64,000 nt of DNA from Roseobacter sp. SK209-2-6 (GTDB lineage: Bacteria; Pseudomonadota; Alphaproteobacteria; Rhodobacterales; Rhodobacteraceae): contig NZ_AAYC01000013.1 in the NCBI RefSeq assembly GCF_000169455.1, forward strand, positions 1 to 64,000, written 5' to 3'. Positions 35,597 to 55,736 of this stretch are shown one piece after another. Both the position numbers and the translations under genes were made by a program. The notes beneath the pieces were generated by a model. It made no database searches, was not told where the DNA came from, and saw only the letters and a program-made list of their open reading frames with translations. How positions within the stretch are numbered: the stretch's first letter is position 1; every line of letters starts with the position of its first letter.

Positions 35597-36766
35597 TCAG
35601 ATCACAATCACATCCAGCGGCGGAAACCCGTTGAAACCGATAGAGGCATAGGTCGAGGTATATGCCCCACAGGAATGGATCACCACACGGTCGCCCGCCT
35701 TTAGGCCTGTCGGCAGCTGATAGGGCTGCTTTTCATAGAGCACATCAACACTGTCACAGGAGGGTCCGGCCACAACGCAGGGGCCTTTTGCCTCATGATC
35801 GCGGTCAGTGGTGATGCGATAGCGGATCGCCTCATCCATGGTTTCGGCGAGGCCCGAGAACTTACCGACATCCAAATAGACCCAACGATGGAGGTCATTC
35901 TCATGTTTCTTCGAGACCAGCAGGACCTCGGCGGCAATGGCCCCAGCCTCTGCCACAAGACCCCTACCCGGTTCGGCCATGATCTCGGCAGCCTCGCCAA
36001 AGCGGGCTTCGACCTGTTTCATGACCTCACGCGCATAGGCTTCTGCTCCCTGCATCTGCTGATCGTAGCTGGCGGGGAAACCACCACCGATGTTGACCAG
36101 GCGGAGGGCATGACCCGCTTCCCGCGCCTGCCGCCAGATCGCTGCGGCCTGATCCAACACCGGCACCCACATGTCTGGCTCCCGGGTCTGCGAACCGACG
36201 TGAAAGGACAAGCCATTGACCACCAAGCCCAGTCCTCGCGCCTGGTCCATCAACCTCAGGGCATCTTCGGGTGCACAGCCAAACTTCCGGCTCAGTGGCC
36301 AATCTGCTTCGCAGTTTTCCACGATGATACGCAGGCAGACCTCTGCCCCCGGTGCATGGGTCGCGATTTTCTCCAGCTCTTCACTGGCATCAAAGGCAAA
36401 ATGGGTGATGCCACAGGCATGCGCGTAGGCGATATCGGCAGGACGTTTGATGGTATTGCCAAAGCTGATTTGTGCAGCAGTCGCGCCTGCCGCAAGGCAC
36501 ATATCAATCTCTGCCCGCCCCGCCGCATCAAAATGCGCGCCCAGCGCCACCAGGCGTTTTAGAATGGCCGCTTCTGGGTTCGCCTTGACCGCATAGTGAA
36601 TACGCGCACGCCCCAGCCCGGCCTCCAAGGCCCTGTATTGCGCGGCTACCGCATCCAGATCCACAACCAGCGTAGGCCGTGCAAAACGGTTCTGGGCGAT
36701 ATACGCTAGGTGACGTGAAAGAGGTTTGGTCGCGCGGGCAGCCTGCCCAGCTACGTTTGCGTTCAT
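35597..36766 (-). CDS. Ornithine/lysine-type PLP decarboxylase (alanine racemase fold)
   Basis: Fold-type III PLP decarboxylase of 389 residues, like eukaryotic-type ornithine decarboxylases of alphaproteobacteria, which make putrescine (or cadaverine). PLP Lys in Y-A-V-K-A-N-P, the Gly-rich phosphate site VNIGGGFPASY, E-P-G-R-G and catalytic Cys in G-P-S-C-D-S-V-D are all present. ATG 36766 is chosen because GGAG lies 6 nt upstream; an ATG at 36772 would leave no spacing. Diaminopimelate and carboxynorspermidine decarboxylases share the fold, but C-D-S-V-D favours ornithine/lysine specificity. Confidence 0.88.
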   Translation of the reverse strand: MNANVAGQAARATKPLSRHLAYIAQNRFARPTLVVDLDAVAAQYRALEAGLGRARIHYAVKANPEAAILKRLVALGAHFDAAGRAEIDMCLAAGATAAQISFGNTIKRPADIAYAHACGITHFAFDASEELEKIATHAPGAEVCLRIIVENCEADWPLSRKFGCAPEDALRLMDQARGLGLVVNGLSFHVGSQTREPDMWVPVLDQAAAIWRQAREAGHALRLVNIGGGFPASYDQQMQGAEAYAREVMKQVEARFGEAAEIMAEPGRGLVAEAGAIAAEVLLVSKKHENDLHRWVYLDVGKFSGLAETMDEAIRYRITTDRDHEAKGPCVVAGPSCDSVDVLYEKQPYQLPTGLKAGDRVVIHSCGAYTSTYASIGFNGFPPLDVIVI

Positions 36767-36984
36767 GGTCATCTCCAAAAGACCCGGCCATATATGACCG
36801 CTCAGTTCCATCAGAGACGTTACCGTCGCTACGTAACCACGGGGGTGCTAAGCCCTTGGGACAGAGGCGCGTGCGTTGGCGTCCTGCCCGTCCTATCGGA
36901 CATGCTGCTGAGTCTTTCAAGAGTTTTCTTGCATAGACTCCACTCACAAGCCCTCTACAGCAGAGTTCTCGCACCCTCGGCACC

Positions 36985-37173
36985 TTACTTTTTCAGGTGA
37001 CAGTACCTAGGTTCAATTAGCCCATCACTCGTGGCACCACAGCTTGCACAGCGCCAGCATCCATTCTTGCGCTCTTCGCGCCAGCGACAGGTCCGCGACA
37101 GATTGCTGGTTTTGTGACGCCAGAGAAAATAGGCAAGAACACCTAGCAAGAGAAGAAGAAGTAAGATCGGCAT
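36985..37173 (-). CDS. Small membrane protein with Cys-rich tail
   Basis: 62-residue predicted protein. It begins with one very hydrophobic helix (MPILLLLLLLGVLAYFLW) and ends in a basic, Cys-rich segment containing C-R-W-R, C-W-R-C-A-S-C-G and a last Cys near the C-terminus, which could bind zinc. A good ribosome site (AAGGAAGG) precedes the ATG, supporting a real gene. No family recognised. It is followed by the decarboxylase on the same strand after about 220 nt. Confidence 0.6.
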   Translation of the reverse strand: MPILLLLLLLGVLAYFLWRHKTSNLSRTCRWREERKNGCWRCASCGATSDGLIEPRYCHLKK

Positions 37174-37228
37174 GGCCTTCCTTACTTCGCCCTCATCTCA
37201 CTCTCAATCCCCTCGAAGAAACAGATCT

Positions 37229-37405
37229 TTAGGCTGCTCTGAAATAGGGCACATAGCCTAGGGGTTGTTGGATTTCCTGATCCGCCGGTTTGGCTTCGGG
37301 CATGTAATAGGCCCAGGCTTGATCCAGGTCCTTCAGGGCTGCCTCAGCTTTTTGCTTGGCGATGGTTTCGGCGATGCGGTCGGTAAGATCTACAGCGGTT
37401 TTCAC
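37229..37405 (-). CDS. Small conserved-looking protein, 58 residues, GTG start
   Basis: Short gene found by direct reading. GTG at 37405, preceded by GAGGA at good spacing, encodes 58 residues ending at TAA 37229-37231. The first half is a charged amphipathic helix (TDRIAETIAKQKAEAALKDL); the second half has the aromatic/proline pattern AWAYYMPEAKP...PLGYVPYF. It is codon-biased like the neighbours and has no hydrophobic segment. It reads as a genuine small cytoplasmic protein of unknown function, 55 nt upstream of the small membrane protein gene on the same strand. Confidence 0.65.
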   Translation of the reverse strand: MKTAVDLTDRIAETIAKQKAEAALKDLDQAWAYYMPEAKPADQEIQQPLGYVPYFRAA

Positions 37406-37520
37406 GGCTTTTTCCTCTGCACGGTTTGACTGCCTCCCTCGGAAGACAACTTAGGTCAGAAGCCCTTGAACTGCATGTTACAATTTCGCATGGCCGTCAT
37501 GCCCGAAACTCAAGGCAATA

Positions 37521-38318
37521 ATGCCTCTTGTTTCCGGGGGCGCTCTCCTGCTTTCTACGCCCATGTTGATGTTTTTCTTTCACGCTTTCCTTTTCCTGTT
37601 GCTCACCGCCGTTACGCAGCTAGGCGGAATTGCCTGGCTGCTGGCCCTTTGCTTCAAAAGGCGCCTGCCAGTCTTTCTAGGTCTTTATCTTCTATCGACC
37701 ATTGCAGCCCATATGCTGGCACCCCATACCGGGCGCGTTCCGGTTAGCTGTTTTGCCAAGGAAAGCCTGCAAGTGCAAAGCTGGTTCTACTGTCTCAGCA
37801 ATCGGAACTATGTCAGCGCCGATCTAGCGGAGGTCCTGCAAGAGGCGGCATCACAAGTAGAAGCACAGTATCCCGGTACCCAGACCCTACTGTTGGATGC
37901 CAACTTCCCGTTTTTGGATGGTTTTCCTTTGCTGCCGCATCTCTCCCACAAAGATGGCCGCAAAGCTGACCTCGCTTTCTATTATCAAGACCAGAACGGT
38001 GGGTATTTGCCTGGGCATCTGCCCTCACCCATAGGCTACTTTGCTTTCGAAGACGGGCCGACAGAATGCCCAGATGCTTGGCCCACCCTGCGTTGGGATC
38101 TGGCTTTTCTTCAGCCTTACTGGCGCGACTATTCCCTTGAACCTGAACGGCTCAAACTTGTGGTCCAGACCCTTGCCGGGAATGAACGGGTAGAGAAGAT
38201 CTTTCTGGAACCACATCTCCAACAAAGACTGGGCCTTCGGGACGCCAAGCTCCGTTTCCAGGGCTGTCGCGCCGCCCGGCACGACGATCACCTGCATCTG
38301 CAGATCTTTCCAGAATAA
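37521..38318 (+). CDS. Membrane-anchored protein with LAS-type zinc peptidase motifs
   Basis: 265-residue protein with two N-terminal hydrophobic helices (about residues 10-65) and a globular domain. The globular part has His143-x6-Asp150 in HLSHKDGRKAD, then His254, His257 and His259 in RHDDHLHLQI at the C-terminus. This pattern matches metal ligands and active site of MepA-like (M74/LAS) murein endopeptidases. It is therefore a candidate peptidoglycan peptidase facing the periplasm, although overall similarity beyond the motifs is not obvious. ATG 37521 follows AAGG; ATG 37563 is an alternative. It is convergent with sdhB. Confidence 0.65.
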   Translation: MPLVSGGALLLSTPMLMFFFHAFLFLLLTAVTQLGGIAWLLALCFKRRLPVFLGLYLLSTIAAHMLAPHTGRVPVSCFAKESLQVQSWFYCLSNRNYVSADLAEVLQEAASQVEAQYPGTQTLLLDANFPFLDGFPLLPHLSHKDGRKADLAFYYQDQNGGYLPGHLPSPIGYFAFEDGPTECPDAWPTLRWDLAFLQPYWRDYSLEPERLKLVVQTLAGNERVEKIFLEPHLQQRLGLRDAKLRFQGCRAARHDDHLHLQIFPE

Positions 38319-38320
38319 GA

Positions 38321-38351
38321 AACCCCCGGCAGGAGTGACCTGCCGGGGGTT
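38321..38351. terminator. Bidirectional terminator between the unknown gene and sdhB
   Basis: AACCCCCGGCAGG and CCTGCCGGGGGTT form a perfect 13-bp stem with a 5-nt loop, 3 nt past the stop of the plus-strand gene and 33 nt past the sdhB stop. The A/T ends allow function on both strands. Confidence 0.85.
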
Positions 38352-38383
38352 CTAACTAGCCACCAAAAAGATGCGCCTTCGGA

Positions 38384-39163
38384 TCAGACCGCGCGATCGA
38401 CCATCATATGCTTGATATGGGCAATCGCCTTGGCCGGATTCAGGCCTTTGGGGCAAGTCTTGGTGCAGTTCATGATGGTGTGGCAACGGTAGAGCTTGAA
38501 GGGATCCTCCAGCTGGTCCAACCGTTCGGGCGTCGCCTCATCTCTGCTGTCAATGATCCAGCGGTAGGCATGCAGCAGTGCTGCTGGCCCAAGGTATTTG
38601 TCGCCATTCCACCAGTAGCTGGGGCAAGAAGTGGAACAGCTGGCACACATGACGCATTCATACAGACCATCCAGCTTTTTGCGGTCCTCAATGGACTGCT
38701 TCCACTCTTTGGCGGGCGCGTTAGTCTTGGTTTCCAGCCAGGGCATGATCGAGGCATGCTGCGCATAGAAATGGGTGAGATCCGGGATCAAGTCCTTGAC
38801 CACCGGCATATGCGGCAGCGGGTAGATCTTTACGTCACCCTTCACCTCATCCATGCCATAGATACAGGCCAGAGTATTGATGCCGCCGATATTCATAGCG
38901 CAAGAACCACAGATCCCTTCGCGGCAGGAGCGGCGGAAGGTCAGCGTCGGATCAATCTCATTCTTGATCTTGATCAGCGCGTCCAGGATCATCGGGCCGC
39001 AATTGTCCATATCGACAAAATAGGTATCAACGCTGGGGTTCTTGCCGTCGTCGGGGTTCCAGCGATAGATCTTGAACTTACGGACATTGGTCGCACCCTG
39101 AGGCTTCGGCCAGGTCTTGCCCGTTGTGATCTTCGAGTTCTTTGGAAGTGCAAATTCGACCAT
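38384..39163 (-). CDS. sdhB: Succinate dehydrogenase iron-sulfur subunit
   Basis: Iron-sulfur subunit (259 residues) of respiratory complex II, transferring electrons from the flavoprotein to quinone. The 2Fe-2S ligands are in [15 protein letters not shown], and the 4Fe-4S and 3Fe-4S ligands in [16 protein letters not shown] and [17 protein letters not shown]. It is the last gene of sdhCDAB, 12 nt after sdhA. A strong hairpin terminator follows. Confidence 0.97.
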
Positions 39164-39175
39164 CTGGGCGTCTCC

Positions 39176-40981
39176 TTAGAAGGTGCGTGCCTTGGGGGCG
39201 ATTTTCTTCAGGCTGATGCCGCCCTCGTCTTCGGTGGTGAGCGGGTCAACGATCACCGGGCGGTAGCTGAGGTCAACCTTCTCACCCTCCACGCGAGAGA
39301 CGGTATGGACGCGCCAGTTCTCGTCATCGCGGGTGGCGTAATCCTCATGGGCATGGGCGCCCCGGCTCTCTTTGCGTGCTTCGGCGCCATGGATTGTGGC
39401 CAGAGCGTTGGGCATCAGGTTGGTGAGCTCGAGGGTTTCCATCAGGTCGGAGTTCCAGACCAGCGAGCGGTCGGTGACCTTGAGGTCACCCATCTTGCCC
39501 GCAATCTCGGTCATCTTCTCAACACCTTCCTTCAGGGTCTTGTCTGTCCGGAAGACTGCCGCGTCGGACTGCATGGTCCGTTGCATCTCCAGCCGCAGAT
39601 CCGCAGTCGCCACCGCGCCGTTTGCGTTGCGCAAACCATCAAAACGGTCGAATGCAGCATCAACCGAGGCCTGGTTCAGCACTGGGTTGGGGGCTTCCGC
39701 ATCCACCACCTTACCCGCACGGATCGCCGCCGCACGGCCAAAGACCACAAGGTCAATCAGAGAGTTGGAGCCCAGACGGTTCGCACCATGCACCGAGGCA
39801 CAGCCCGCTTCGCCCACAGCCATAAGGCCGGGCACAACACCGGTTGGATCTTCCGCGGTTGGGTTCAGCACCTCACCCCAATAGTTGGTGGGGATACCGC
39901 CCATGTTGTAGTGCACGGTGGGCAGAACCGGGATCGGCTCTTTGGTGACATCAACACCGGCAAAGATTTTCGCACTTTCCGAAATACCCGGCAGGCGTTC
40001 CGCCAGTGCCTCGGCTGGCAGGTGGGAGAGGTTCAAGTGGATGTGATCACCTTCAGCGCCCACACCGCGGCCTTCGCGGATTTCCATGGTCATCGAACGC
40101 GAAACATAGTCGCGCGGTGCAAGGTCTTTATACTGCGGCGCATAGCGCTCCATGAAGCGCTCGCCTTCGGAGTTGGTGAGGTATCCACCCTCGCCGCGCG
40201 CGCCTTCGGTAATCAGGCAGCCGGAGCCATAGATGCCGGTTGGGTGGAACTGCACGAATTCCATGTCCTGCAGCGCCAAGCCAGCGCGCGCCACCATGCC
40301 GCCGCCGTCACCGGTGCAGGTATGGGCGGAAGTGGCGGAGAAATAGGCGCGGCCGTAACCACCGGTCGCCAGCACCACCATCTTGGCGTTGAAGACATGC
40401 ATGGTGCCGTCATCGAGCTTCCAGCAGACTACGCCCTGGCACTGCCCGTCCTCGGACATGATCAGGTCGATGGCGAAATACTCGATATAGAATTCCGCGT
40501 TGTTCTTGAGACTCTGACCATAAAGCGTGTGCAAGATGGCGTGGCCGGTCCGGTCGGCGGCGGCACAGGTGCGCTGCACCGCAGGGCCTTCACCGTATTC
40601 GGTGGTATGGCCGCCAAAGGGGCGCTGATAGATCTTGCCCTCTTCGGTGCGGCTGAAGGGCACGCCGTAGTGCTCCAGCTCATAGACCGCCTTGGGGGCT
40701 TCACGTGCGAGGTATTCCATCGCGTCTGTGTCACCCAGCCAGTCAGAGCCCTTGACGGTGTCATACATATGCCACTGCCAGCTGTCCGGACCCATGTTGC
40801 CCAGAGAGGCCGCAATGCCGCCCTGCGCTGCCACGGTGTGGGAGCGGGTTGGGAAAACCTTGGTGACACAGGCGGTACGCAACCCCTGCTCCGCCATGCC
40901 CAATGTTGCGCGTAGGCCGGCACCGCCGGCACCCACGACCACGACGTCATAATCATGCGTCTCGTATTCGTATGCAGCCAT
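39176..40981 (-). CDS. sdhA: Succinate dehydrogenase flavoprotein subunit
   Basis: Catalytic FAD subunit of complex II, 601 residues. FAD-binding start [20 protein letters not shown], the flavinylated His in H-T-V-A-A-Q-G-G, and active-site segments [25 protein letters not shown] and [12 protein letters not shown] are all present. It oxidises succinate to fumarate at the membrane surface. It lies between sdhD and sdhB with short gaps, so it shares the operon promoter upstream of sdhC. Confidence 0.98.
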
Positions 40982-40993
40982 GTCTCTTGTCCC

Positions 40994-41365
40994 TTACAGC
41001 GCAATCTTGGCCAGAGCAAAAACCCCGGTCGCAATGGTGGTATAGCTTAACCCGATGACAAATATGATCAGTGCCTTGCGCATGGAGCCCCGCGCATAGT
41101 CCTCGATCATCATCTGAGCACCTTTGTTGAAGTGCATCACGCCCGCATAAAGCGTGAGACCGGTCAGAATTGCGGGAAAGGGCCGCGAGAAGGTCGCCAG
41201 AACCTCTTCATGGCTGCTGCCAATGGCAGACCCCACAACATAGAGGAAAGCAGGAACCAGAAAGGCCAAAGCAACAGCGCTGGCCTGCATGTACCAATGG
41301 TGCTCCGTACCGGTTCCAGAAGCCCCTTTGCCCTCGGCGCGTTTGCGAGCAGTCAAATAACGCAT
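40994..41365 (-). CDS. sdhD: Succinate dehydrogenase membrane anchor subunit
   Basis: Hydrophobic anchor of 123 residues with three membrane helices. It holds the GTGTEHHWYMQASAVALAFLVPAFLY start typical of alphaproteobacterial SdhD, and a mid-helix His (LYAGVMHFNKG) suited to haem or quinone binding. ATG 41365 follows AAGGAGG; an extension to 41386 overlaps sdhC and is not preferred. It anchors SdhAB to the membrane with SdhC. Confidence 0.93.
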   Translation of the reverse strand: MRYLTARKRAEGKGASGTGTEHHWYMQASAVALAFLVPAFLYVVGSAIGSSHEEVLATFSRPFPAILTGLTLYAGVMHFNKGAQMMIEDYARGSMRKALIIFVIGLSYTTIATGVFALAKIAL

Positions 41366-41375
41366 GGTTGCCTCC

Positions 41376-41759
41376 TTAAACCACAAGCACGGTAATGGCG
41401 GTCAAGACAAACGAACCGGCTATACAGCCCCAACCGAGCTTTTCAGCGGTTTCGATATCTAGGCCATGACCCGCATCAAAGTAGAGGTGCCGCAGGCCTG
41501 CCAGGAAGTGGTACCAAATGCCCAAAGTTGAGAGCAGCAATACGATGCGCCCAAACCAGGATGTCAAAAGACCATTCGCAAGTTCAAAATATTCGGCCGA
41601 GGTCGCAGCCGCCAAGAGCCACCAGACAACCATGATCACCGCGATGATCAGTGCGTTGCCAGTGATCCGTGTCAAGATCGAGGACATTGATGTCATTTGT
41701 GGACGGTAGATCGACAAATGTGGCGAAAGCGGGCGCTCGCCCCGATTTACATCGGCCAT
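41376..41759 (-). CDS. sdhC: Succinate dehydrogenase cytochrome b556 subunit
   Basis: Cytochrome b subunit of complex II, 127 residues, three helices. Diagnostic motif R-P-L-S-P-H-L-S-I-Y-R-P near the N-terminus, and haem-ligand His in GLRHLYFDAGHG. ATG 41759 follows AAAGGAGCC; the upstream extension to 41819 lacks family similarity. It is the first gene of the sdh operon. A two-box palindromic element lies 111 nt upstream of the ATG, the same element found before sucC. Confidence 0.95.
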   Translation of the reverse strand: MADVNRGERPLSPHLSIYRPQMTSMSSILTRITGNALIIAVIMVVWWLLAAATSAEYFELANGLLTSWFGRIVLLLSTLGIWYHFLAGLRHLYFDAGHGLDIETAEKLGWGCIAGSFVLTAITVLVV

Positions 41760-41870
41760 GTTGGCTCCTTTCCGGTTAGCTGACGACGTTTTAGCGTTTT
41801 TTTGCGTCCTGTCACGCAAACGAGTGGTAAATTCCTGCAGTTATTTGACCAGAGTTAGCGAAAACAATGC

Positions 41871-41907
41871 ATTTGTGATCACACGCATTCAATAAGTGAT
41901 CACAAAT
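41871..41907. promoter_or_regulatory. Two-box palindromic operator upstream of sdhC
   Basis: ATTTGTGATCAC (41871-41882) and GTGATCACAAAT (41896-41907), perfect 12-bp inverted arms with a 13-nt spacer. Each arm contains a GTGATCAC palindrome, and the box centres are 21 bp apart, about two helical turns. It lies 111 nt before the sdhC start codon. The identical element occurs upstream of sucC. Confidence 0.8.
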
Positions 41908-41911
41908 TAAC

Positions 41912-42655
41912 TCACTGAAAAACTTTTGCAGAATCAGCCCCCCTTTCTGCAAATTCTTGCAAATCCGGCGCCGGCTCGTTGAAAGGCGGCAGGAAATCAG
42001 CGGTTTTTTCCGCCACCTCTCTGATCAGCTTTCTGCGAATTTTCTGCGGGTAGTCGCGGAAGTTTGCTGCGGTCTCAACAAAGGCGCCTTCCCCGCGGAT
42101 GACGTTTTCATAGAAGTAGGCGGTCAGCTCTGGCTCGCTCTGCTCAATGGCAATGGCATTGACAGTGATCCCTTTGGCGCCAAGTTCCGGATGGAGCGCC
42201 CTGGGAGCAATGCCTTCATTGGAAAACCCATCCCCAGACAAATCGATCACGCGGCGTTGGCACTCGGTAACTTGGTTGAACTGCAAGGAGGCTAATTCCA
42301 GCGCCTCGCCCAGCGCCGTGGAAAAATTGCGCCAGGGTCGCGGGGTCAGTTCAACCCGCTGGGCCAGGGCCTCAACATCTTCAAAAGTTTGCAAGGCAGT
42401 CCAAGGGATGGAAATCTCTTGTCGCCTGGTTCCAGACCACTGTATCAAGAGAATCTGAGCTTCGGCTCGCACCAGTGCTTCGGAAACGATTCCGTCCCGC
42501 AGCCCCTCTGCCAGCCCATCCATCTGGATCCGATACTCCGTCTCATCCACAGACCCGGAAACATCCACCGCCAAAACCAGCGCCAGATCGCAGGCAGTTG
42601 CCAAACGCGGCAACAGCAAGGAAAGACAACAGATCAAAACACGCAAATATTGCAT
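41912..42655 (-). CDS. DUF1194 protein with von Willebrand A-like domain
   Basis: Exported 247-residue DUF1194 protein. A signal peptide (LRVLICCLSLLLPRLATA) precedes a vWA-type domain with the MIDAS start V-D-V-S-G-S-V-D, RRVIDLSGDGFSNEG and a Thr/Ser-rich metal loop near RNFSTALGEAL. Such domains bind protein ligands through a divalent metal; the family's partner is unknown. It is on the same strand as sdhC but upstream of the sdh operator, and is probably an independent unit. Confidence 0.85.
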   Translation of the reverse strand: MQYLRVLICCLSLLLPRLATACDLALVLAVDVSGSVDETEYRIQMDGLAEGLRDGIVSEALVRAEAQILLIQWSGTRRQEISIPWTALQTFEDVEALAQRVELTPRPWRNFSTALGEALELASLQFNQVTECQRRVIDLSGDGFSNEGIAPRALHPELGAKGITVNAIAIEQSEPELTAYFYENVIRGEGAFVETAANFRDYPQKIRRKLIREVAEKTADFLPPFNEPAPDLQEFAERGADSAKVFQ

Positions 42656-42849
42656 GAGATCAAGTTAGATCCTCATCATGGTTGCGTCACCCTCTTTTCG
42701 GCTGGATTTCTTTGCTCTCTCACTATTGCTTGGCAAAGTGGCAGATACCACTCACAGTCAGCCCTTGCCCCTAGGGTAAGGTTCACCTTCTGGCCGAAGG
42801 CCCCATTGCTGGCCTGAAAATGCCGGTCTGCAACCTCCCAAGCTCTCAG

Positions 42850-43896
42850 TTATTTGGGCATCAGCACCCAGTAATCGAGATCCAGCAGCACGTCGGGCAA
42901 GTATTTGCCATCATCGCCTTTGAGTTCAAAGGGCGCCCCGCCTTTGGTCGCAACCAAGCGCAAACGCAGAGCTCCTACTCCAGGAGCCTCTGTATCAGCT
43001 TTGTCCAGCACCTCGCTCCAGGCGCGAATGGTGGTGCCAGAGAGGCAGGGGTTGGCATGAGCACCGCCATTGAGGCCAACTATCATCTGCGCGTTGGCCA
43101 GCCCGTTGAACGACAGCGCCCGCGCCATCGAAATCACGTGACCGCCATAGATCAGCCGGGTCCCATCGGGGCGCGCCGTAGTGTCGAAATGCACCTTGGC
43201 TGTATTCTGCCAAAGACGCGTGGCCAGCATATGCTCCGCCTCTTCCACGGTGACACCGTCGACGTGGTCAATGGTTTCACCAATCTCATAGTCGCCCCAA
43301 CGATGCGACTCACCGGCCAGACCGAAATCATAATCGGAGAAGTCGAGCCCGGCAGGCACCACCAGCTGGTCCGCCGGGATGACTTTTGTCAGCTCCGGCA
43401 CATGGGTTTCCGGCGCGGGCGCATCCAGGTCGCGCTTGCGCACCATGACCCAGCGCACATATGCCATGACGCATTCATCGCGCTGGTTCAGCCCGCGAGT
43501 GCGGACATAGACCACCCCGGTCTTGCCGTTGGAGTTCTGCTTAAGCCCGATCACTTCGGATTCAGACCGCAGTGTATCGCCCTCGTAGACCGGCAGCAGC
43601 CAGCGCCCTTCGGCATAGCCAAGATTTGCCACCGCATTGAGAGAGACATCGGGAACCGTCTTGCCAAAGACCACATGGAATGCCACCAGATCATCCAGCG
43701 GCGCCCCTGGCAGACCGGAGCGGCGGGCAAATTCATCCGAGGAATAAAGCGCATGGCGCGCAGGGTATAGCGCATGATAGAGCGCCCGCTCGCCGCCCGA
43801 CACAGTGCGTGGCACCGCGTGGGTGATCACTTCACCCAGCTTGTAGTCCTCAAAGAACCGGCCCGGATTGGTTTTTGCCGCTCTGGTCTTTGCCAT
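42850..43896 (-). CDS. mch: Mesaconyl-CoA hydratase (beta-methylmalyl-CoA dehydratase)
   Basis: Ethylmalonyl-CoA pathway enzyme interconverting mesaconyl-CoA and beta-methylmalyl-CoA. 348 residues made of two MaoC-like hot-dog domains, the Mch length. The N-terminus GRFFEDYKLGEVITHAVPRTVSGGERALYHALYPAR and second-half hydratase stretch KVHFDTTARPDGTRLIYGGHVISMARALSFNG are characteristic. ATG 43896 follows CTGGGAG and overlaps the TGA of the DUF1737 gene (TGATG). It sits downstream of mcl2-NnrU-DUF1737 on the same strand, so at least two pathway genes may be in one transcript. Confidence 0.93.
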   Translation of the reverse strand: MAKTRAAKTNPGRFFEDYKLGEVITHAVPRTVSGGERALYHALYPARHALYSSDEFARRSGLPGAPLDDLVAFHVVFGKTVPDVSLNAVANLGYAEGRWLLPVYEGDTLRSESEVIGLKQNSNGKTGVVYVRTRGLNQRDECVMAYVRWVMVRKRDLDAPAPETHVPELTKVIPADQLVVPAGLDFSDYDFGLAGESHRWGDYEIGETIDHVDGVTVEEAEHMLATRLWQNTAKVHFDTTARPDGTRLIYGGHVISMARALSFNGLANAQMIVGLNGGAHANPCLSGTTIRAWSEVLDKADTEAPGVGALRLRLVATKGGAPFELKGDDGKYLPDVLLDLDYWVLMPK

Positions 43897-44099
43897 CAGT
43901 GTTCTCCCAGCTTTGTTTCGCGCGTGTAGGTGCCATCCACATCCTTGACCACCGCCTGACCGCAACGCATGACACCCTTCACCGGATCAAAGGCCTGGGT
44001 CGGGCTGCCATGCAGCTCCCAGCCCTTGTTCAAGGCATCCGTCACCTTGTGGCAAAAGTCCGAGGTGTCGTCCTCGCTCAGAAATCGATAGAGTTTCAT
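43896..44099 (-). CDS. DUF1737 domain small protein
   Basis: 67-residue DUF1737 protein, beginning MKLYRFLSEDDTSDFCHKVTDALNKGWELHGSPTQAF, a one-domain family of unknown role common in Rhodobacterales beside acyl-CoA genes. It starts 6 nt after the NnrU stop and overlaps mch by one base, so it is co-translated with mch. A regulatory or chaperone role for the hydratase is possible but not shown. Confidence 0.87.
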   Translation of the reverse strand: MKLYRFLSEDDTSDFCHKVTDALNKGWELHGSPTQAFDPVKGVMRCGQAVVKDVDGTYTRETKLGEH

Positions 44100-44105
44100 C
44101 CGTCA

Positions 44106-44654
44106 CTACCCTGGAAATGGAGAAGGCCCCACGAGGCCATGGACATAGCCGATCACGGCCAAAAGTATGATTGAAGCAACCAAGAACATCCCGTCCTTGG
44201 CAATGCTGCCCTTGGCGGGCGCGGTCCAATTGGGCTCTGCCCGGTTGATCACGACCATCTCCAACAGTGCCCAGGCCAGCATGCTGCCAAAGAGCACGAA
44301 TGAAGCGGGATCCCAATTGACCAAGAGGTGCGCGATGGCCCAGAGCGAGAAGCCAAAGAGCATTGGATGGCGCATCCGGTAGAAGAGCGCCCCTTTGCTA
44401 GGGCCAGGGCTGGTGAAATAGAGCGCCAGCAGCATCAACAGGTTATTCACATGCTGCAGGAAGGGCGGATATAGCGCCAACTCATAAGATTCAGCCGAGC
44501 GATAGCCAAGAACCATCAGAACCACACCAGCCAGCAAGGCCAAGGCGACGAGCCCTTTGCCGCGCTGCCCCATAGGTTCGCGGATGCCCGGCGCCACCCG
44601 CTTGAACAGGTGCGCGCCCCACCAGATTAGGATGCCTAGGACCAAAAGTGTCAT
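44106..44654 (-). CDS. NnrU family membrane protein
   Basis: 182-residue integral membrane protein with about five helices, related to NnrU and to the isoprenylcysteine methyltransferase-like membrane fold (FYRMRHPMLFGFSLWAIAHLL, LYFTSPGPSKGALF). NnrU proteins were first noted near nitrite/NO reductase genes; no denitrification gene is in this window. It lies between mcl2 and the DUF1737-mch pair on the same strand, suggesting cotranscription but no obvious functional link. Confidence 0.85.
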   Translation of the reverse strand: MTLLVLGILIWWGAHLFKRVAPGIREPMGQRGKGLVALALLAGVVLMVLGYRSAESYELALYPPFLQHVNNLLMLLALYFTSPGPSKGALFYRMRHPMLFGFSLWAIAHLLVNWDPASFVLFGSMLAWALLEMVVINRAEPNWTAPAKGSIAKDGMFLVASIILLAVIGYVHGLVGPSPFPG

Positions 44655-44688
44655 GTCAGTCTCCCCGAGATGTTAATATGTTTAACAC

Positions 44689-45543
44689 CTACGTCGAAAG
44701 GGCCGCGATTGCATCCGCTTTTGCAAGAATTTCACGTGCGGTCACCACGTGAAGATTCTCCACGATCTTGCCATCGACCACTGCAACGCCCTGCCCTGCG
44801 GCTTCGACCTCTTCAAAGGCCGTGATCTGACGCTTGGAGAGATCGATTTCCTCTTCGCTGGGTGCAAATGCGTTATTCGCCACCTCTACCTGCGCAGGGT
44901 GGATAAGGGTTTTGCCGTCAAACCCCATGTCCCGACCCTGGTTACATTCCAGCCTCAGCCCCTCAGCGTCCTTGAAAGCATTGTAGACGCCATCAACAAT
45001 TATCAACCCTTCTGCTTTTGCAGCCAAAAGGCAAAGGCCTAGGCCCGACATCAGGGGCAGACGATCTGAACGGAACCGGGTCTGCAGCTCTTTGGCCAAA
45101 TCATTGGTCCCCATGACCATCCCTTGCAAGCGCGGATGCGCTGCAATCGCAGGGGCATTCAGCATGCCACGCGGGGTCTCCATCATGGCCCAGATCGGCT
45201 TATCCCCAATCAGATCTGCCAGCGCATCCAGATCTTGCGGAGAGGAGACCTTTGGCAGCAGGACCGCATCACAGTCCATCTCGGCTGCGGCGCGTGCATC
45301 CGCCTCACCCCATTGTGTATCCAGGCCATTGATCCGCACAATCTTGACCCGATCTCCATACCCGCCTTGCACCAGAGCCTCGGCAAGGGTGGCACGGGCA
45401 GTGGTTTTCTCATCCGCCGCCACCGCATCTTCGAGATCAAATATCACCGCATCCACAGGCAGGCTGCGCGCCTTGTCCAGCGCCCTCGGCTTGGATCCAG
45501 GGATATATAGAACCGAACGGTATGGGCGGTTGCGCGGGTCCAT
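44689..45543 (-). CDS. mcl2: (3S)-malyl-CoA thioesterase / HpcH-HpaI family (Mcl2-like)
   Basis: CitE-like HpcH/HpaI family enzyme of 284 residues. It matches the shorter Mcl2 type, which hydrolyses (3S)-malyl-CoA to malate in Rhodobacter, rather than the longer Mcl1 lyase (about 318 residues). Start RSVLYIPGSKPRALDKARSLPVDAVIFDLEDAVA and metal-site residues in MMETPRGMLNA and GTNDLAKEL are seen. ATG 45543 has GGAG just upstream; a TTG 15 nt earlier is rejected. With mch nearby it completes the malate end of the pathway; mcl1 is not in the window. Citrate-lyase beta-like relatives are the alternative reading. Confidence 0.82.
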   Translation of the reverse strand: MDPRNRPYRSVLYIPGSKPRALDKARSLPVDAVIFDLEDAVAADEKTTARATLAEALVQGGYGDRVKIVRINGLDTQWGEADARAAAEMDCDAVLLPKVSSPQDLDALADLIGDKPIWAMMETPRGMLNAPAIAAHPRLQGMVMGTNDLAKELQTRFRSDRLPLMSGLGLCLLAAKAEGLIIVDGVYNAFKDAEGLRLECNQGRDMGFDGKTLIHPAQVEVANNAFAPSEEEIDLSKRQITAFEEVEAAGQGVAVVDGKIVENLHVVTAREILAKADAIAALST

Positions 45544-45558
45544 GAGGTGCTCCTGCAA

Positions 45559-45912
45559 GTTATTTTGTTGCGCAAATGGCTATATGCGAGAGAAGAAACT
45601 TTCAAGAGAAATCACGCCGCAGCGCAGAATGTTTTCCTATGGAAGGTTCAACTCATTGAAAATAAGTGAGAAAAATGCCAGCCCGGTTTGTTAACACTAT
45701 TTCAGCAACTTACTGGCACAGTTTTAATGTCGCAGGGCTTCCAGGCAAGAACTCCTTACCCTGCTGCCGGAGAAATAGTCCGGCTGGGAACTACCGGGCC
45801 AAAGGCCCGAATAACAATTACGTCACAGCAACCGGCTCAGTCTTGAGGGCACGGAGAGAGGCTAGTCTCGCCACTCTCCCTTGAGGAAGCCGTTCCGGAA
45901 AGGGTAAAACCC
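45559..45912. other. Divergent non-coding region with two hairpins
   Basis: Region between mcl2 (minus) and a secreted-protein gene (plus). It contains CCGGA-N7-TCCGG (45767-45783) and CGGGCC-AAA-GGCCCG (45795-45809) close together. They lie about 100-150 nt upstream of the plus-strand gene and may be leader-RNA structures. No coding sequence or known RNA family was recognised. Confidence 0.45.
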
Positions 45913-46245
45913 ATGAAAAAGACGATGTTTAAAACCGCATTTGGCCTGACTGCTCTTAGCTTGGCCATGACTCTCACAACTGCAGCACCTTCGGCCGCAC
46001 AGGGCCGCAACTGTGCACCACGCGATGTGGTGGTTCAACGCCTCGCTGATAAATATGGCGAAAGCCGTCAGAGCATTGGCCTTGGTCAGCAAGGCATGGT
46101 GATGGAAACTTTTGCCTCCGCCGAAAGCGGCAGCTGGACAATCACCGTAACGATGCCCACTGGAATGACTTGCCTTATGGCATCGGGTCAGTCTTTTGAA
46201 GCCTTGGCAGAAGCGCTTCCTGCACCAGCGGATAACGACGCCTAA
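45913..46245 (+). CDS. Secreted hypothetical protein
   Basis: 110-residue protein with a clear signal peptide (MKKTMFKTAFGLTALSLAMTLTTAAPSAAQ) and a small mature domain of about 80 residues: GRNCAPRDVVVQRLADKYGESRQSIGL, then a beta-like C-terminal part (SWTITVTMPTGMTCLMASG) with two Cys that could form a disulfide. AAAGGG lies upstream of the ATG. The pattern of an N-terminal helix and a Thr/Cys strand suggests a periplasmic protein of unknown role. No family name recognised. Confidence 0.75.
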   Translation: MKKTMFKTAFGLTALSLAMTLTTAAPSAAQGRNCAPRDVVVQRLADKYGESRQSIGLGQQGMVMETFASAESGSWTITVTMPTGMTCLMASGQSFEALAEALPAPADNDA

Positions 46246-48048
<1,803 letters not shown>

Positions 48049-48091
48049 CCCGCGAAGAAACAAACCTGCTGCCTTGGCAGCAAAGACTAGG

Positions 48092-48125
48092 AAGCACGGC
48101 CCATCTTGGCCGTGCTTTTCTTTTT
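48092..48125 (+). terminator. Intrinsic terminator after mdh
   Basis: AAGCACGGCC (48092-48101) and GGCCGTGCTT (48108-48117) with a 6-nt loop, followed by TTCTTTTT. It ends the mdh transcript 43 nt past its stop. Confidence 0.92.
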
Positions 48126-48254
48126 CCTATCTCTTCCTCTCCGGTCCTGACACCACCAGCCCCAACTGCGAGACACAAAGGGCGTTTCCCCGCTTGAAAC
48201 GTCGCATTTCCCCTATTTCCAAACTCACGAATCAAATCCGCTAAGGATTTATAA

Positions 48255-48291
48255 ATTTGTGATCACACGATTAAAAAGCGTGATCACAAAT
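48255..48291. promoter_or_regulatory. Two-box palindromic operator upstream of sucC
   Basis: ATTTGTGATCAC (48255-48266) and GTGATCACAAAT (48280-48291), arms identical to those upstream of sdhC and the same 13-nt spacer length. It lies 108 nt before the sucC start codon, compared with 111 nt at sdhC. The spacers differ except for the first bases, so the conservation is confined to the arms. Confidence 0.82.
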
Positions 48292-48399
48292 GCGGAAAAT
48301 CTTCATCATTTCCCCGTGAAGCATCAAAAAACCCTTTAAAAATGTAGGTTATGACGGCGTTATGACAAAGACAAATGAAGCCAGACGGGACAGTTTCTC

Positions 48400-49593
48400 A
48401 TGAACATCCACGAATATCAGGCCAAGGCCCTTCTTCGCAGCTACGGTGCGCCGGTTTCCGACGGACGCGTGGTGCTGAAGGCCGATGAAGCCAAAACCGC
48501 TGCAGGCGAGCTTGACGGCCCGCTTTGGGTGGTGAAGGCACAGATCCATGCCGGCGGTCGCGGCAAGGGCTCCTTCAAGGAGGCCGATGCAGGCGAAAAA
48601 GGCGGCGTGCGCCTGACCAAATCGGTGGAGGAAGCCGCCGAGGAAGCCAAGAAGATGCTGGGGCGCACCCTGGTCACCCATCAGACCGGCCCCGCAGGCA
48701 AGCAGGTCAACCGGATCTACATCGAAGCGGGCTCGGGCATTCAAAGCGAGCTTTACCTCGCCCTGCTGGTAGATCGTCAGACCTCGCGCATCTCCTTTGT
48801 CTGCTCCACCGAAGGCGGCATGGACATTGAGGAAGTGGCGGCTGAGACCCCGGAAAAGATCCTCTCCTTCTCTGTTGATCCGGCTACCGGCTATCAACCC
48901 TATCACGGCCGCCGCGTTGCCTTCTCGCTGGGGCTTGCGGGTGCCCAGGTAAAGCAATGCGTCAAGCTGATGGGCCAACTCTACCAGGCCTTTGTCGACA
49001 AAGACATGGAGATGCTGGAGATCAACCCGCTGATCATCGCGGATGATGGCAACCTCAAGGTGCTGGACGCCAAGGTCGGCTTTGACGGCAACGCGGTCTA
49101 CCGCCACGCCGATGTGGCCGAGCTGCGCGACACCACAGAGGAAGACCCCAAAGAGCTGGAAGCCTCCAAGTATGACCTGAACTACATCGCGCTCGACGGT
49201 GAGATCGGCTGCATGGTGAACGGCGCGGGGCTGGCGATGGCCACCATGGACATCATCAAGCTTTACGGCGCTGAGCCTGCAAACTTCCTCGACGTGGGCG
49301 GCGGCGCCACCAAAGAGAAAGTCACCGAGGCCTTCAAGATCATCACCTCTGACCCCAACGTCAAAGGCATCCTGGTCAATATCTTCGGCGGCATCATGCG
49401 CTGTGATGTGATTGCCGAGGGCGTGGTTGCCGCGGTGAAGGAAGTCGGCCTGCAGGTTCCGCTGGTTGTCCGCCTTGAGGGCACTAATGTGGAAGCCGGC
49501 AAAGACATCATCAACAACTCCGACGTTGATGTGATCGCCGCCGACGACCTGTCTGACGGCGCCGAGAAAATCGTGAAAGCGGTGAAGGGTTAA
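48400..49593 (+). CDS. sucC: Succinyl-CoA synthetase beta subunit
   Basis: ADP-forming succinate-CoA ligase beta subunit, 397 residues. The ATP-grasp domain starts [22 protein letters not shown], has the nucleotide loop [19 protein letters not shown], and the C-terminal CoA-ligase domain shows [15 protein letters not shown]. It works with SucD in substrate-level phosphorylation. It is the first gene of a long TCA unit and is preceded by the shared two-box operator. Unusually, a low-GC membrane-protein gene separates it from sucD. Confidence 0.97.
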
Positions 49594-49604
49594 AGCCTAC
49601 TTCG

Positions 49605-49919: not shown

Positions 49920-49932
49920 GAGACTCCTAAAA

Positions 49933-50817
49933 ATGGCAGTCCTCATCGACGAAAACACCAAGGTCATCTGTCAGGGCTTCACCGGCTCGCAGGGCACCTT
50001 TCACTCTGAACAGGCCATCGCCTATGGCACCAAGATGGTTGGCGGCGTCACGCCGGGCAAGGGCGGGCAGAGCCACCTGAACCTGCCGGTCTTCAACTCC
50101 GTGCACGAAGCCAAGCATGTGACCGAGGCCAATGCCTCCGTCATCTACGTGCCGCCCCCCTTTGCAGCAGACTCGATCCTCGAAGCCATCGATGCCGAGA
50201 TGGAACTCATCGTTTGCATCACCGAAGGCATCCCGGTTCTGGACATGATGCGGGTGCAGCGCGCGCTCGAAGGCAGCAGCTCGCGCCTCATCGGCCCCAA
50301 CTGCCCCGGCGTGATCACTCCGGACGCCTGCAAAATCGGCATCATGCCTGGCCATATCCACAAACGCGGCTCGGTCGGCGTGGTTTCCCGCTCCGGCACC
50401 TTGACCTATGAGGCGGTGAAGCAGACTTCTGACATCGGGCTTGGCCAGTCCTCTGCTGTGGGTATCGGCGGCGACCCCATCAAGGGCACCGAGCATATCG
50501 ACGTGCTGGACCTGTTCCTGGACGATGATGAGACCGAGTCCATCATCATGATCGGTGAAATCGGTGGCTCTGCCGAAGAGGAAGCAGCCGAATTCCTCGC
50601 CGAGCAGAAGAAAAAAGGCCGCTGGAAGCCGGTTGCAGGCTTCATCGCCGGACGTACCGCCCCTCCCGGCCGCCGAATGGGCCACGCGGGCGCCATTGTT
50701 GCCGGCGGCAAAGGCGGTGCTGAGGACAAGATCGAAGCAATGAAAGCCGCAGGTATCGTAGTCGCCGAAAGCCCCGCGGGCCTGGGCGAAGCCGTGCTGA
50801 AAGCGATCAAAGGCTAA
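49933..50817 (+). CDS. sucD: Succinyl-CoA synthetase alpha subunit
   Basis: Alpha subunit of succinate-CoA ligase, 294 residues. The CoA-binding N-terminus [22 protein letters not shown] and the phosphohistidine motif [10 protein letters not shown] near residue 250 are clear. A TAGGAGACTCC ribosome site lies before the ATG. It is separated from sucC by an inserted small gene but remains in the same orientation. A GC-rich hairpin follows its stop. Confidence 0.97.
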
Positions 50818-50826
50818 AGAACTTTT

Positions 50827-50848
50827 GGGGCGGCGCAGATGCCGCCCC
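50827..50848 (+). repeat. GC hairpin after sucD
   Basis: GGGGCGGC (50827-50834) and GCCGCCCC (50841-50848) with a 6-nt loop, 9 nt past the sucD stop. There is no T-run, so partial attenuation or mRNA 3'-end protection is more likely than full termination. Confidence 0.6.
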
Positions 50849-51264: not shown

Positions 51265-54216
51265 ATGACCGATCAAAGCCCAAACGACCTGTTCCACGCC
51301 TCCTCCTTCATGCAGGGGCACAATGCGGAATATCTGGAGCAGCTCTATGCTCAATATGCCAATGACCCGAGCGCAGTGGATGCGGCCTGGGCAGAGTTCT
51401 TTCGCCAGATGGGCGATGCCGAACTAGATGTGAAGGCCGAGGCCGCTGGTCCCTCCTGGGCCCGTGGCGACTGGCCACCTGCTCCGAATGACGACTTGAC
51501 CGGCGCTCTGACGGGTGAATGGCCCGCTCCGGTGGAGACCAAGGCTGCAGGCAAGAAGATCGCCGAGAAGGCACAATCGGCCGGGGTTGAGATCTCCAAT
51601 GATCAGATCCAGCGCGCTGTCTTGGACTCGATCCGGGCTCTGATGTTGATCCGCGCCTACCGGATCCGGGGGCATCTGGCGGCCAATCTGGACCCATTGG
51701 GCATGCATGGCAGCACCCCACATCCCGAACTGGACCCGGTGAGTTATGGCTTCACTGAGGATGATTTGGATCGCCCGATCTTTATCGACAATGTTCTTGG
51801 CCTCCAGGTCGCCACCATGCGCCAGATCGTCGAGATCGTGAAGCGCACCTATTGCGGTACCTTTGCGCTGCAATACATGCATATCTCTGATCCCGCACAA
51901 TCGGCCTGGCTGAAGGAACGGATCGAGGGCTACGACAAGGAAATCAAGTTCACCCGCGAAGGCCGCAAGGCGATCCTGAACAAGATGGTCGAAGCCGAGG
52001 GTTTTGAGAAATTCCTACACGTCAAATATACCGGCACCAAACGCTTTGGTCTGGATGGCGGTGAGAGCCTTATCCCGGCGATGGAACAGATCATCAAACG
52101 CGGCGGCGCTCTGGGTGTGCAGGATATCGTCATCGGCATGCCGCACCGCGGCCGTTTGAACATCCTGGCAAACGTAATGCAAAAGCCCTATCGGGCAATC
52201 TTCAACGAGTTCCAGGGCGGATCGTTCAAACCCGAAGATGTAGATGGTTCCGGCGATGTGAAATACCACCTTGGTGCCTCCTCGGACCGGGCCTTTGATG
52301 GAAATAATGTGCACCTCTCGTTGACGGCCAACCCTTCGCACCTGGAAGCGGTCAACCCGGTTGTCATCGGCAAGGTCCGCGCCAAGCAGGACCAATTGAA
52401 GGATGACAGCCGCACCAAAGTAATGCCGATCCTCTTGCATGGCGATGCGGCCTTTGCAGGTCAGGGTGTTGTGGCAGAGTGTTTTGCGCTTTCGGGCCTC
52501 AAGGGTCACAAGACCGGCGGCACCATGCATATCGTGGTGAACAACCAGATCGGTTTCACCACGGCGCCGCATTTCTCACGCTCCTCGCCCTATCCCACCG
52601 ACAATGCGCTGGTGGTTGAAGCGCCGATCTTCCACGTCAATGGGGATGATCCTGAAGCGGTTGTACATGCGGCTAAGGTTGCGACCGAATTCCGCCAGAA
52701 ATTCGGGCGCGACGTGGTGCTGGATATCTTTTGCTATCGCCGCTTTGGTCACAACGAAGGCGACGAGCCGATGTTCACCAACCCTTTGATGTACAAGAAA
52801 ATCAAAGGGCATAAGACCACGCTCAGCCTCTATACCGAACGACTGGTCAAGGATGGTCTGATCCCCGAAGGTGAGATCGAGGACATGAAGGCCGCTTTCC
52901 AGGCCATGCTGAACGAAGAGTTCGAGATCGGCAAAGACTACAAACCCAATAAGGCCGACTGGCTGGATGGGCGCTGGTCGCATCTGGACAAGAAGGATGA
53001 GGATTATCAGCGCGGTCGCACGGCAATTCCGCCTGAAACGTTTGCTGAAATCGGCAAATCGCTTTCCTCGGTCCCTGAGGGCTTTCCAATGCATCGCACC
53101 GTTGGCCGGGTTCTGGATACCCGTGGCAAGATGTTCGAAAGTGGAGAGGGCTTTGACTGGGCTACCGGCGAAGCACTGGCCTTTGGGTCCCTGCTGACCG
53201 AGGGCTTCCCGGTTCGCCTGGCTGGGCAGGACGCCACACGCGGCACCTTCTCTCAGCGTCATTCCGGTATCATCAACCAGGAAACCGAAGAGCGTTACTA
53301 CCCGCTGAATAACATTCGCCCGGGTCAGTCCCAATATGAGGTGATCGATTCTGCACTGTCGGAATATGCGGTACTGGGCTTTGAATATGGCTACTCCCTG
53401 GCAGAGCCCAATGCCCTGACCCTCTGGGAAGCGCAGTTTGGCGATTTCGCCAATGGTGCGCAGATCATGTTCGACCAGTTCATCTCCTCGGGGGAGAGCA
53501 AATGGCTGCGGATGTCAGGTCTGGTCTGTCTGCTGCCTCATGGCTTTGAAGGCCAGGGGCCTGAGCACTCCTCTGCGCGGCTGGAACGCTTCCTGCAGAT
53601 GTGTGGCCAGGACAATTGGATCGTCGCAAACTGCACCACGCCTGCAAACTATTTCCACATCCTGCGTCGGCAGCTGCATCGGACCTTCCGCAAGCCATTG
53701 ATCATGGTGACCCCTAAGTCTCTGCTGCGTCACAAATTGGCGGTCAGCAAAGCGGAAGAGTTCACCACAGGCTCCAGCTTCCACCGGGTGCTCTGGGATG
53801 ACGCCCAGCACGGCAACTCCGATACTCAGCTCGTCACAGATGACAAGATCAAGCGCGTCGTCATGTGCTCGGGCAAGGTCTACTACGACCTCCTAGAAGA
53901 GCGCGATGCCCGTGGTATCGACGATGTCTACCTTATGCGGATCGAACAGTATTATCCCTTCCCGGCGATCTCCATGGTCAAGGAATTGGAGCGCTTCAAG
54001 CAGGCTGAAATGGTCTGGTGCCAGGAAGAGCCTAAGAACCAGGGTGCCTGGACCTTTATTGAACCCAATATCGAATGGGTGCTGAGCCGCATCAAGGCCA
54101 AGCATACCCGGCCCCAATATGTGGGCCGCGCCACCTCGGCGTCTCCGGCCACCGGTCTCGCCAGCCAACATAAAGCCCAACAAGCCGCGCTCGTGAATGA
54201 CGCGCTGAGCATCTGA
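51265..54216 (+). CDS. sucA: 2-oxoglutarate dehydrogenase E1 component
   Basis: Thiamine-diphosphate-dependent E1 of the 2-oxoglutarate dehydrogenase complex, 983 residues, the usual length. N-terminus [34 protein letters not shown], catalytic region with [16 protein letters not shown] and the Th[10 protein letters not shown] motif, and [21 protein letters not shown] in the C-terminal domain. ATG 51265 gives the family start; the frame extends to 51163 but overlaps the lipoprotein gene. It is followed 12 nt later by sucB. Confidence 0.97.
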
Positions 54217-54227
54217 GGAAGACAGAC

Positions 54228-55736
54228 ATGACCACCGAAGTTCGCGTGCCCACTCTGGGCGAATCCGTGACCGAAGCCACCGTTGCCACTTGGTTCAAGA
54301 AACCCGGTGACGCCATTGCGCAGGACGAAATGCTCTGTGAGCTGGAAACGGATAAGGTCACCGTTGAGGTCCCTGCCCCCGCTGCCGGCGTGCTGGCAGA
54401 GATTGTCGCCAATGAGGGCGATACCGTGGGTGTTGACGCTCTGCTGGCAAATATCTCAGCAGATGGCGCCGCCGCAGCCCCTGCAAGCGCTCCGGCCACC
54501 GCACCTGCGCCTGCTGCAGACAGCGGCGCAGCGACCGATGTGATGGTGCCCACTCTGGGTGAGTCTGTGACCGAGGCCACCGTCTCCGTCTGGTTCAAGA
54601 AAGTCGGCGACACGGTTGCGCAGGACGAAATGCTCTGCGAGTTGGAAACCGACAAAGTCTCGGTTGAAGTGCCCGCCCCAGCATCTGGCGTATTGGCTGA
54701 AATCACCGCCGCAGAGGGCGCCACCGTTGAAGCCAGCGCCAAATTGGGCGTGATCTCGGGTTCTGGAGCAGCCGTAGCGGCGGCGCCAACCGCAGCCTCC
54801 GCAGCCGCTGCCGCTCCTGCCGCCGCGAGCAAGGACATCGCCAATGCGCCATCGGCGGAAAAGGCCATGGCTGAAGCCGGGCTTTCTGCTGCTCAGGTCG
54901 CCGGCAGCGGTCGTGACGGCCGCATCATGAAAGAAGATGTCTCACGCGCGGTTGCCGCCGCCGCAGCAGCGCCTGCCCCGGCGCCAGCCCCGGCTGTAGC
55001 CGCAACCCCACGGGCACCGGTGACTGCCGACGATGCTGCACGTGAGGAACGGGTCAAGATGACCCGCCTTCGTCAAACCATCGCCAAGCGTCTGAAAGAC
55101 AGCCAGAACACCGCAGCTATGCTGACCACCTACAATGAGGTGGACATGACCGAGGTGATGGCCCTGCGCAATGAGTACAAGGACCTCTTCCAGAAGAAGC
55201 ACGGCGTGAAGCTCGGCTTCATGTCCTTCTTTACCAAGGCCTGCTGCCACGCGCTGAAAGAAGTGCCAGAGGTCAACGCAGAGATTGACGGCACCGACAT
55301 CGTCTACAAGAACTTCGTCCACATGGGCGTCGCGGCCGGTACGCCGACCGGTCTGGTGGTTCCGGTGATCCGCGACGCGGATGCGATGTCCTTTGCCGCG
55401 ATCGAAAAGGCCATTGCCGAAAAAGGCGCGCGCGCCCGCGATGGTAAGCTTTCGATGGCAGAGATGCAGGGCGGCACCTTCACCATCTCCAACGGTGGCG
55501 TCTACGGCTCACTGATGTCTTCGCCGATCCTGAACCCGCCGCAATCCGGTATCCTGGGCATGCACAAGATCCAGGACCGCCCCATGGCCATCAACGGTGA
55601 GGTGGTGATCCGCCCGATGATGTATCTGGCGCTCTCCTATGATCACCGCATCGTCGACGGCAAAGGTGCTGTGACCTTCCTGGTCCGCGTTAAAGAAGCC
55701 CTGGAAGATCCCCGCCGCCTGCTGATGGATCTGTGA
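54228..55736 (+). CDS. sucB: 2-oxoglutarate dehydrogenase E2, two lipoyl domains
   Basis: Dihydrolipoyl succinyltransferase of 502 residues. It has two N-terminal lipoyl domains, each with E-L-E-T-D-K (lipoyl Lys43 and Lys143, exactly 100 residues apart), whereas E. coli SucB has one. Ala/Pro-rich linkers flank them, followed by an E1/E3-binding domain ([28 protein letters not shown]) and a catalytic domain ending [11 protein letters not shown]. The two lipoyl domains are nearly identical at DNA level over part of their length, implying a recent or homogenised duplication. It is co-transcribed with sucA. Confidence 0.97.

Follow-up and report, generated by a model that had tools for sequence, protein, structure and literature searches.

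The 64,000-nucleotide stretch of Roseobacter sp. SK209-2-6 DNA considered here (the window) raises the question of why the sdh and suc operons carry the same two-box palindrome in front of their first genes, which protein acts on it, and with what effect. An earlier note on this DNA had claimed that the palindrome is identical at sdhC and sucC, with two arms and a 13-nt spacer, that the box centers lie 21 bp apart, and that the distances to the start codons are 111 and 108 nt. All three claims hold. The pattern ATTTGTGATCAC-N13-GTGATCACAAAT is present before both genes with identical arms; its core centers are at 41878.5 and 41899.5 (sdhC) and at 48262.5 and 48283.5 (sucC), at each operon 21 bp, or two helical turns, apart; and the operator lies 111 nt from the ATG of sdhC, which is at 41759 on the minus strand, and, at sucC, 108 nt from the ATG at 48400. 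The features concerned are as follows.

41871..41907, minus strand: putative paired operator of the sdhC promoter (pattern search and shuffles; conserved upstream of sdhC in relatives)
41875-41882 (proximal) and 41896-41903 (distal), minus strand: sdhC operator cores GTGATCAC (pattern search)
41376..41759, minus strand: the gene that we take, from its place and sequence, to be sdhC (ORF list; tblastn to relatives)
40994..41365, minus strand: sdhD (ORF list)
39176..40981, minus strand: sdhA (ORF list)
38384..39163, minus strand: sdhB (ORF list)
48255..48291, plus strand: putative paired operator of the sucC promoter (pattern search; kept in front of sucC in relatives)
48259-48266 (distal) and 48280-48287 (proximal), plus strand: sucC operator cores GTGATCAC (pattern search)
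48400..49593, plus strand: sucC (ORF list; tblastn to relatives)
49933..50817, plus strand: sucD (ORF list)
51265..54216, plus strand: sucA (chosen start; the listed ORF opens earlier)
54228..55736, plus strand: sucB (ORF list)

Within the suc operon, an ORF for a membrane-like protein of 104 aa (49605-49919) separates sucC from sucD, which are directly adjacent in some relatives, and a small lipoprotein-like ORF (50859-51230) separates sucD from sucA. A VWA-type gene (41912-42655), presumably DUF1194-like, lies on the same strand as sdhC and ends 4 bp from the sdhC operator, while mdh precedes the operator at sucC.

The earlier note had also judged a chance origin of the palindrome to be unlikely, and this judgment is borne out. 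None of 100 dinucleotide shuffles of the window contained a match to the paired pattern, and a search of all 4,553,096 bases of the genome gave the exact pair at these two sites only and the reversed pattern not at all; allowing three mismatches added one site, which lies within an open frame. The single 8-mer GTGATCAC is less distinctive: it occurs nine times in the window, with 0.8 expected, and four of the nine belong to the two operators; the others are at 5820, 21435, 40043, 43823 and 50311. Outside the window, the genome has seven further copies of TTGTGATCAC, six of them within open frames and one directly upstream of a GntR gene.

The pair is conserved in relatives. We searched 390 genomes of the order, which are all listed under one family, for the exact pair with a spacer of 8-18 nt allowed; 309 of them, from 120 of 139 genera, contain it, and none contains the reversed control. 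The genes downstream, which the earlier note had proposed to list across Rhodobacterales, are those expected: all 30 exact-pair loci that were fetched precede sucC (23), sdhC (6) or sucA (1). At the sucA locus (L019), the operator lies between mdh and sucA with no intervening sucC and was apparently retained along with the suc promoter. For 80 of the 81 genomes lacking the exact pair (G383 was left out), we located sucC and sdhA and read the upstream DNA. With a cut of at least 16 of 20 letters, chosen once the distributions had been seen, a near-perfect pair was present at sucC in 76/80 and at sdhC in 70/80, while the best of 161 mononucleotide-shuffled 400-base stretches matched 15 of 20 letters. 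The count at sucC takes the best match per genome and leaves out second matches of 49-61% identity; a second close sucC match in G184, which has no pair, was excluded from the 80. Among spacers of 11-15 nt, the near-perfect pairs had 13 nt in 73 (sucC) and 67 (sdhC) cases and 12 nt in three at each operon. Six of the ten sdhC upstream regions without a pair come from genomes that retain the sucC pair and the regulator described below. Ten genomes reached via named loci all have the core pair, at two sites each in eight of them, at one in Rhodovulum visakhapatnamense and at three in Tritonibacter mobilis, where the third core pair (G778:C17:129314-129342) is beyond the two expected.

Among 385 genomes drawn from the class, the pair was present in 5/5 genomes of the family and in 2/380 others, with the reversed control matching one genome (G462). 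Both pairs outside the family (L135 and L141) have a 14-nt spacer, belong to two other alphaproteobacterial families and lie beside unrelated genes, i.e. a TonB-receptor-like gene and a hydrolase at one and an aminotransferase and a chemoreceptor at the other, as named from reading translations; we judged them unrelated to the element described here, and they are perhaps the site of another GntR regulator. Thus, the element is found throughout much of the family and seldom beyond it. Absence of the pair upstream of sdhC and sucC in relatives, the finding that the earlier note had set against its own proposal, is not what relatives show; most of them keep the pairs. The 37-bp pair is, therefore, supported as a real regulatory element shared by sdh and suc.

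Which protein, then, would bind there? The AkgR regulon of Rhodobacter sphaeroides was reportedly described by Imam et al. in mBio in 2015, and we take AkgR to be RSP_0981. The earlier note did not recognize the motif as a known TCA operator. This view has to be corrected, as the available part of PMC6365646 gives GTGATCAC among the binding sites of the GntR activator AkgR of R. sphaeroides, while PMC4344238, in the part available, predicts that sucCD, sdh and the genes for alpha-ketoglutarate dehydrogenase are under the control of the GntR regulator RSP_0981. As text strings, TTGTGATCACAA had no literature match, TGTGATCACA had a sole bacterial match, which concerns Sphingobium and bisphenol F, and GTGATCAC combined with succinate dehydrogenase and Alphaproteobacteria had none. 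The elements described here share with the AkgR regulon, as it appears in the available parts of these papers, the core palindrome GTGATCAC in the operator (PMC6365646) and the predicted targets sdh, sucCD and sucAB (PMC4344238), and the genome encodes a GntR regulator tied to the site by its own box and by co-occurrence (P0001). Three further features come from the present analysis and may be new, namely the constant box spacing of 12-13 nt, the occurrence of the sdhC −35 at either of two places separated by one helical turn, and the solitary box of the regulator gene, usually with a −35 exactly 18 nt ahead of it. The paired palindrome is most likely best filed as an AkgR-type operator of TCA genes, and hence as already largely explained, although its rigid spacing gives a clue to the mechanism. 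The idea of the earlier note that the motif may define a regulon of succinate-metabolizing genes survives with regard to a regulon shared by sdh and suc. The succinate label does not survive, because sucA and sucB follow sucC and sucD, and we prefer to speak of a TCA-segment regulon.

The candidate regulator is encoded elsewhere in the genome.

G000:C25:170484-171143, outside the window: P0001, candidate AkgR ortholog (220 aa, GntR and FCD domains)

Among 30 GntR matches in the genome (28 above the cut-off), only P0001 has a box directly upstream of its start; in another match (L069) a box lies ~240 bp upstream. The arrangement recurs in orthologs: of 80 regulator loci, 61 have a single box core between −120 and +45 relative to the reference start, and 19 lack it. 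At 51 of these 61 loci, TTGAC starts exactly 18 nt before the core, and in the named regulator set TTGAC was found at the same distance in 44/59, plus one with a second TTGAC; the two sets (L075-L134/L308-L327 and L328-L407) draw partly on the same organisms and do not count as independent. In 48/61 own-box loci, the core start is followed at 16-18 nt by the first ATG or GTG in frame. With a 17-nt spacer, the −10 would fall inside the box and the transcription start site approximately at the start codon, from which we infer that the regulator gene is leaderless and self-repressed. A comparable arrangement is described in the available part of PMC6365646 for PS417_07240, a GntR protein of the deoxyribonate cluster of Pseudomonas simiae that is stated to be 32% identical to AkgR and has the 8-bp palindrome GTGATCAC near its own start codon (−47 to −40); it differs in having a single site, a local catabolic cluster and other targets.

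P0001 is likely the ortholog of AkgR, as judged from motif, co-occurrence and synteny. Of the 80 named loci, 26 of which are shorter than 20 kb, 39 have the regulator gene facing the end of the suc operon. In Gemmobacter lanyuensis, it lies ~5.3 kb past sdhB, in agreement with the numbering of RSP_0974-6 versus RSP_0981; by contrast, in Cereibacter ovatus and C. flavus no sdh or suc gene was found within 10 kb of the regulator. Because synteny agrees in the former species and not in the latter two, the assignment is likely and falls short of proof. A Ruegeria ortholog was modeled five times (alignment of 32), with a mean pLDDT of 84 for the best model and of 64-73 for the other four. McbR/YncC of E. 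coli, whose targets differ from sdh and suc, is both the closest solved sequence to P0001 (PDB 4p9f) and the closest solved fold to the Ruegeria model (one chain; Foldseek E 1e-11, 25% identity); other GntR regulators are also near this model, including the Agrobacterium VanR with a fortuitous citrate. N137, H141, H184 and D206, which we take to line the FCD ligand pocket, are invariant across 20 aligned orthologs.

We suggest, with a probability of about 0.86, that each 37-bp palindrome forms a two-site operator for a factor of the GntR/FCD type, most likely the AkgR ortholog P0001, that activates sdhC and sucC and represses itself. In this model, one dimer would bind each GTGATCAC palindrome, so that two dimers would sit 21 bp apart on the same face of the helix. 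From their position far upstream, they would activate sdhC and sucC by touching RNA polymerase. At the regulator's own gene, the single box would cover the −10 of a probably leaderless promoter, giving rise to self-repression. The ligand is perhaps a TCA intermediate. Computation shows the conservation, the spacing and the association of regulator and site, whereas the bound protein, activation, self-repression and the ligand belong to the model.

The direction of regulation can be assessed from the geometry of the predicted promoters.

41810..41815, minus strand: predicted sdhC −35, GTGACA (top-scoring promoter candidate; the position recurs across genomes)
41788..41793, minus strand: predicted sdhC −10, TAAAAC (promoter scoring; 16 nt from the −35)
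48335..48340, plus strand: weak predicted sucC −35, TTTAAA (by eye; 45 nt after the operator)
48360..48365, plus strand: weak predicted sucC −10, TTATGA (by eye; 19 nt from the −35)

Counted from the operator in the form TTGTGATCAC...GTGATCACAA, the predicted sdhC −35 follows at 57 nt. In 76 sdhC upstream regions (69 from genomes without the exact pair and seven exact-pair loci; that of G377 was excluded from the promoter analyses on account of a start codon misfit), a −35-like NTGAC follows the operator at 45-47 nt in 23 and at 55-59 nt in 47; six have neither and none has both. Between these classes, at 48-54 nt, NTGAC is confined to two nearer-class sequences, each of which has it as an additional word at 52. 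The two −35 classes differ by approximately one helical turn. The nearer class of 23 sequences comes from six genera; because 14 of the 23 are from one genus, shared descent explains much of it, and it does not represent 23 independent events. At sdhC, the mean promoter score was 8.92 versus 7.72 for shuffled sequences. The sucC promoter is weak and is suggested by positional clustering: in 100 sucC upstream regions (76 from genomes without the exact pair and 24 exact-pair loci), 45 have a TTTA or TTAA that begins at 44-46 and 20 have a TATA that begins at 69-70, while promoter scores were no better than shuffled (mean 7.82 versus 7.77), and the −35 picked by eye is within 1 nt of the third-ranked scored candidate, not the top one. 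Assuming transcription to start 7 nt after the predicted −10, the box centers would be at about −98 and −119 (sdhC) and −88 and −109 (sucC). This would put both boxes on the upstream side of the polymerase, which is the arrangement expected of an activator, and contact with the polymerase from upstream would explain why the sdhC −35 positions are one whole turn apart.

The same AkgR-like protein might instead repress sdhC and sucC, for instance through looping between the boxes or through blockage of a promoter further upstream. Repression is the usual mode of GntR proteins, and at the regulator's own gene the box follows the −35 so closely that it should cover the −10. We nevertheless consider repression of the two operons unlikely, since both operons have their boxes well ahead of the predicted −35, the −35 of sdhC is found at either of two distances that differ by one turn, and AkgR is termed an activator in print (PMC6365646, available part).

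Regulator and operator were also compared in their occurrence across genomes. An ortholog with at least 66% identity, a cut chosen once the distributions had been seen, was present among the matches listed in 80/80 exact-pair genomes, which were hand-chosen and include the window's own genome, and in 75/80 genomes without the exact pair. The five genomes with no such ortholog among the matches listed are G023 and G231 (no match at E 1e-25), G140 (34%), G109 (50%) and G226 (49%). Four of the five, i.e. all except G023, have no pair at either operon, and two congeners of G231 retain two exact pairs each. Absence of the pair at sucC is associated with absence of the ortholog (Fisher 3e-6, ignoring kinship; three genera). 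In the four pairless genomes, no paired 8-bp palindrome at 19-23 bp was found near the start of sdhC or sucC; two chance-like palindrome pairs in G231 are both inside the gene. Thus, with the exception of G023, site and factor are missing together. G023 has both operators (L218 and L258) and no regulator match at E 1e-25, reflecting either an assembly gap or a recent loss of the regulator. G109 and G226 encode a 49-50% identical relative with its own GTGATCAC box (L323 and L324), while their sdhC and sucC lack the pair; this diverged factor may have changed targets.

A different owner of the site, be it another GntR protein such as the 40% identical paralog at L066, or CceR, CRP or FNR, is less probable still than repression by an AkgR-like protein. 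CRP and FNR sites have the form TGTGA-N6-TCACA or TTGAT-N4-ATCAA, and the operator fits neither, as the gap is 0 nt in each box and 13 nt between boxes; the earlier note had excluded a CRP site on the same grounds and was right to do so. Relatives of P0001 with 31-42% identity exist in many of the genomes searched, but the L066 locus lacks a box, and the sucC pair is absent in 4/5 genomes in which the P0001 ortholog is absent or replaced. For TCA genes of Alphaproteobacteria, regulation by CceR/GapR and PckR has been predicted or reported (PMC4344238, PMC4052901 and PMC11323563, available parts); these proteins differ from AkgR in belonging to the LacI family and in recognizing another motif. 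CceR (RSP_1663) is predicted at sdh in R. sphaeroides (PMC4344238, available part), and according to the available part of PMC11323563, succinate dehydrogenase and 2-oxoglutarate dehydrogenase belong to the CceR regulon in this species and not in Paracoccus denitrificans. However, GTGATCAC does not match the RSP_1663 consensus [A/G/T]GTT N6-8 AAC[A/C/T] given in the available part of PMC4344238, and the conserved operator does not match the CceR/GapR consensus. A word that fits this consensus, AGTTAGCGAAAACA, adjoins the sdhC operator at 41853-41866. As a family-wide co-site at sdhC, such a word was rejected: it occurs within 45 nt after the operator in 3/76 upstream regions (shuffled mean 0.9).

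An RNA hairpin, acting as terminator of the upstream gene or as leader element, is very improbable: the arms could pair and the sdhC copy lies 4 bp beyond the DUF1194-like gene, but sucC is preceded by the same element, there located behind mdh; at sdhC the predicted promoter comes after the element; the spacer is variable in sequence and hardly in length; and of the three weak matches in an Rfam search of 36000-56000, none lay at the element and all scored far below the gathering threshold.

Based on these results, a seemingly unknown TCA operator is now tied to a known regulator, and the likely regulator gene is named in the genome. The rules of spacing and phasing can be tested on two natural promoters, and the genomes that lack both the regulator and the sites represent natural controls. 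We speculate, at even odds, that a single operator code operates throughout the family, in which paired dimers with a spacing of exactly 20-21 bp, set in whole helical turns relative to the promoter, would bring about activation of sdh and suc and one dimer over the −10 of a leaderless promoter self-repression, so that the number and placement of sites alone would determine the sign of regulation. If this operator code is true, it would amount to a self-limiting switch for a segment of the TCA cycle across the family.
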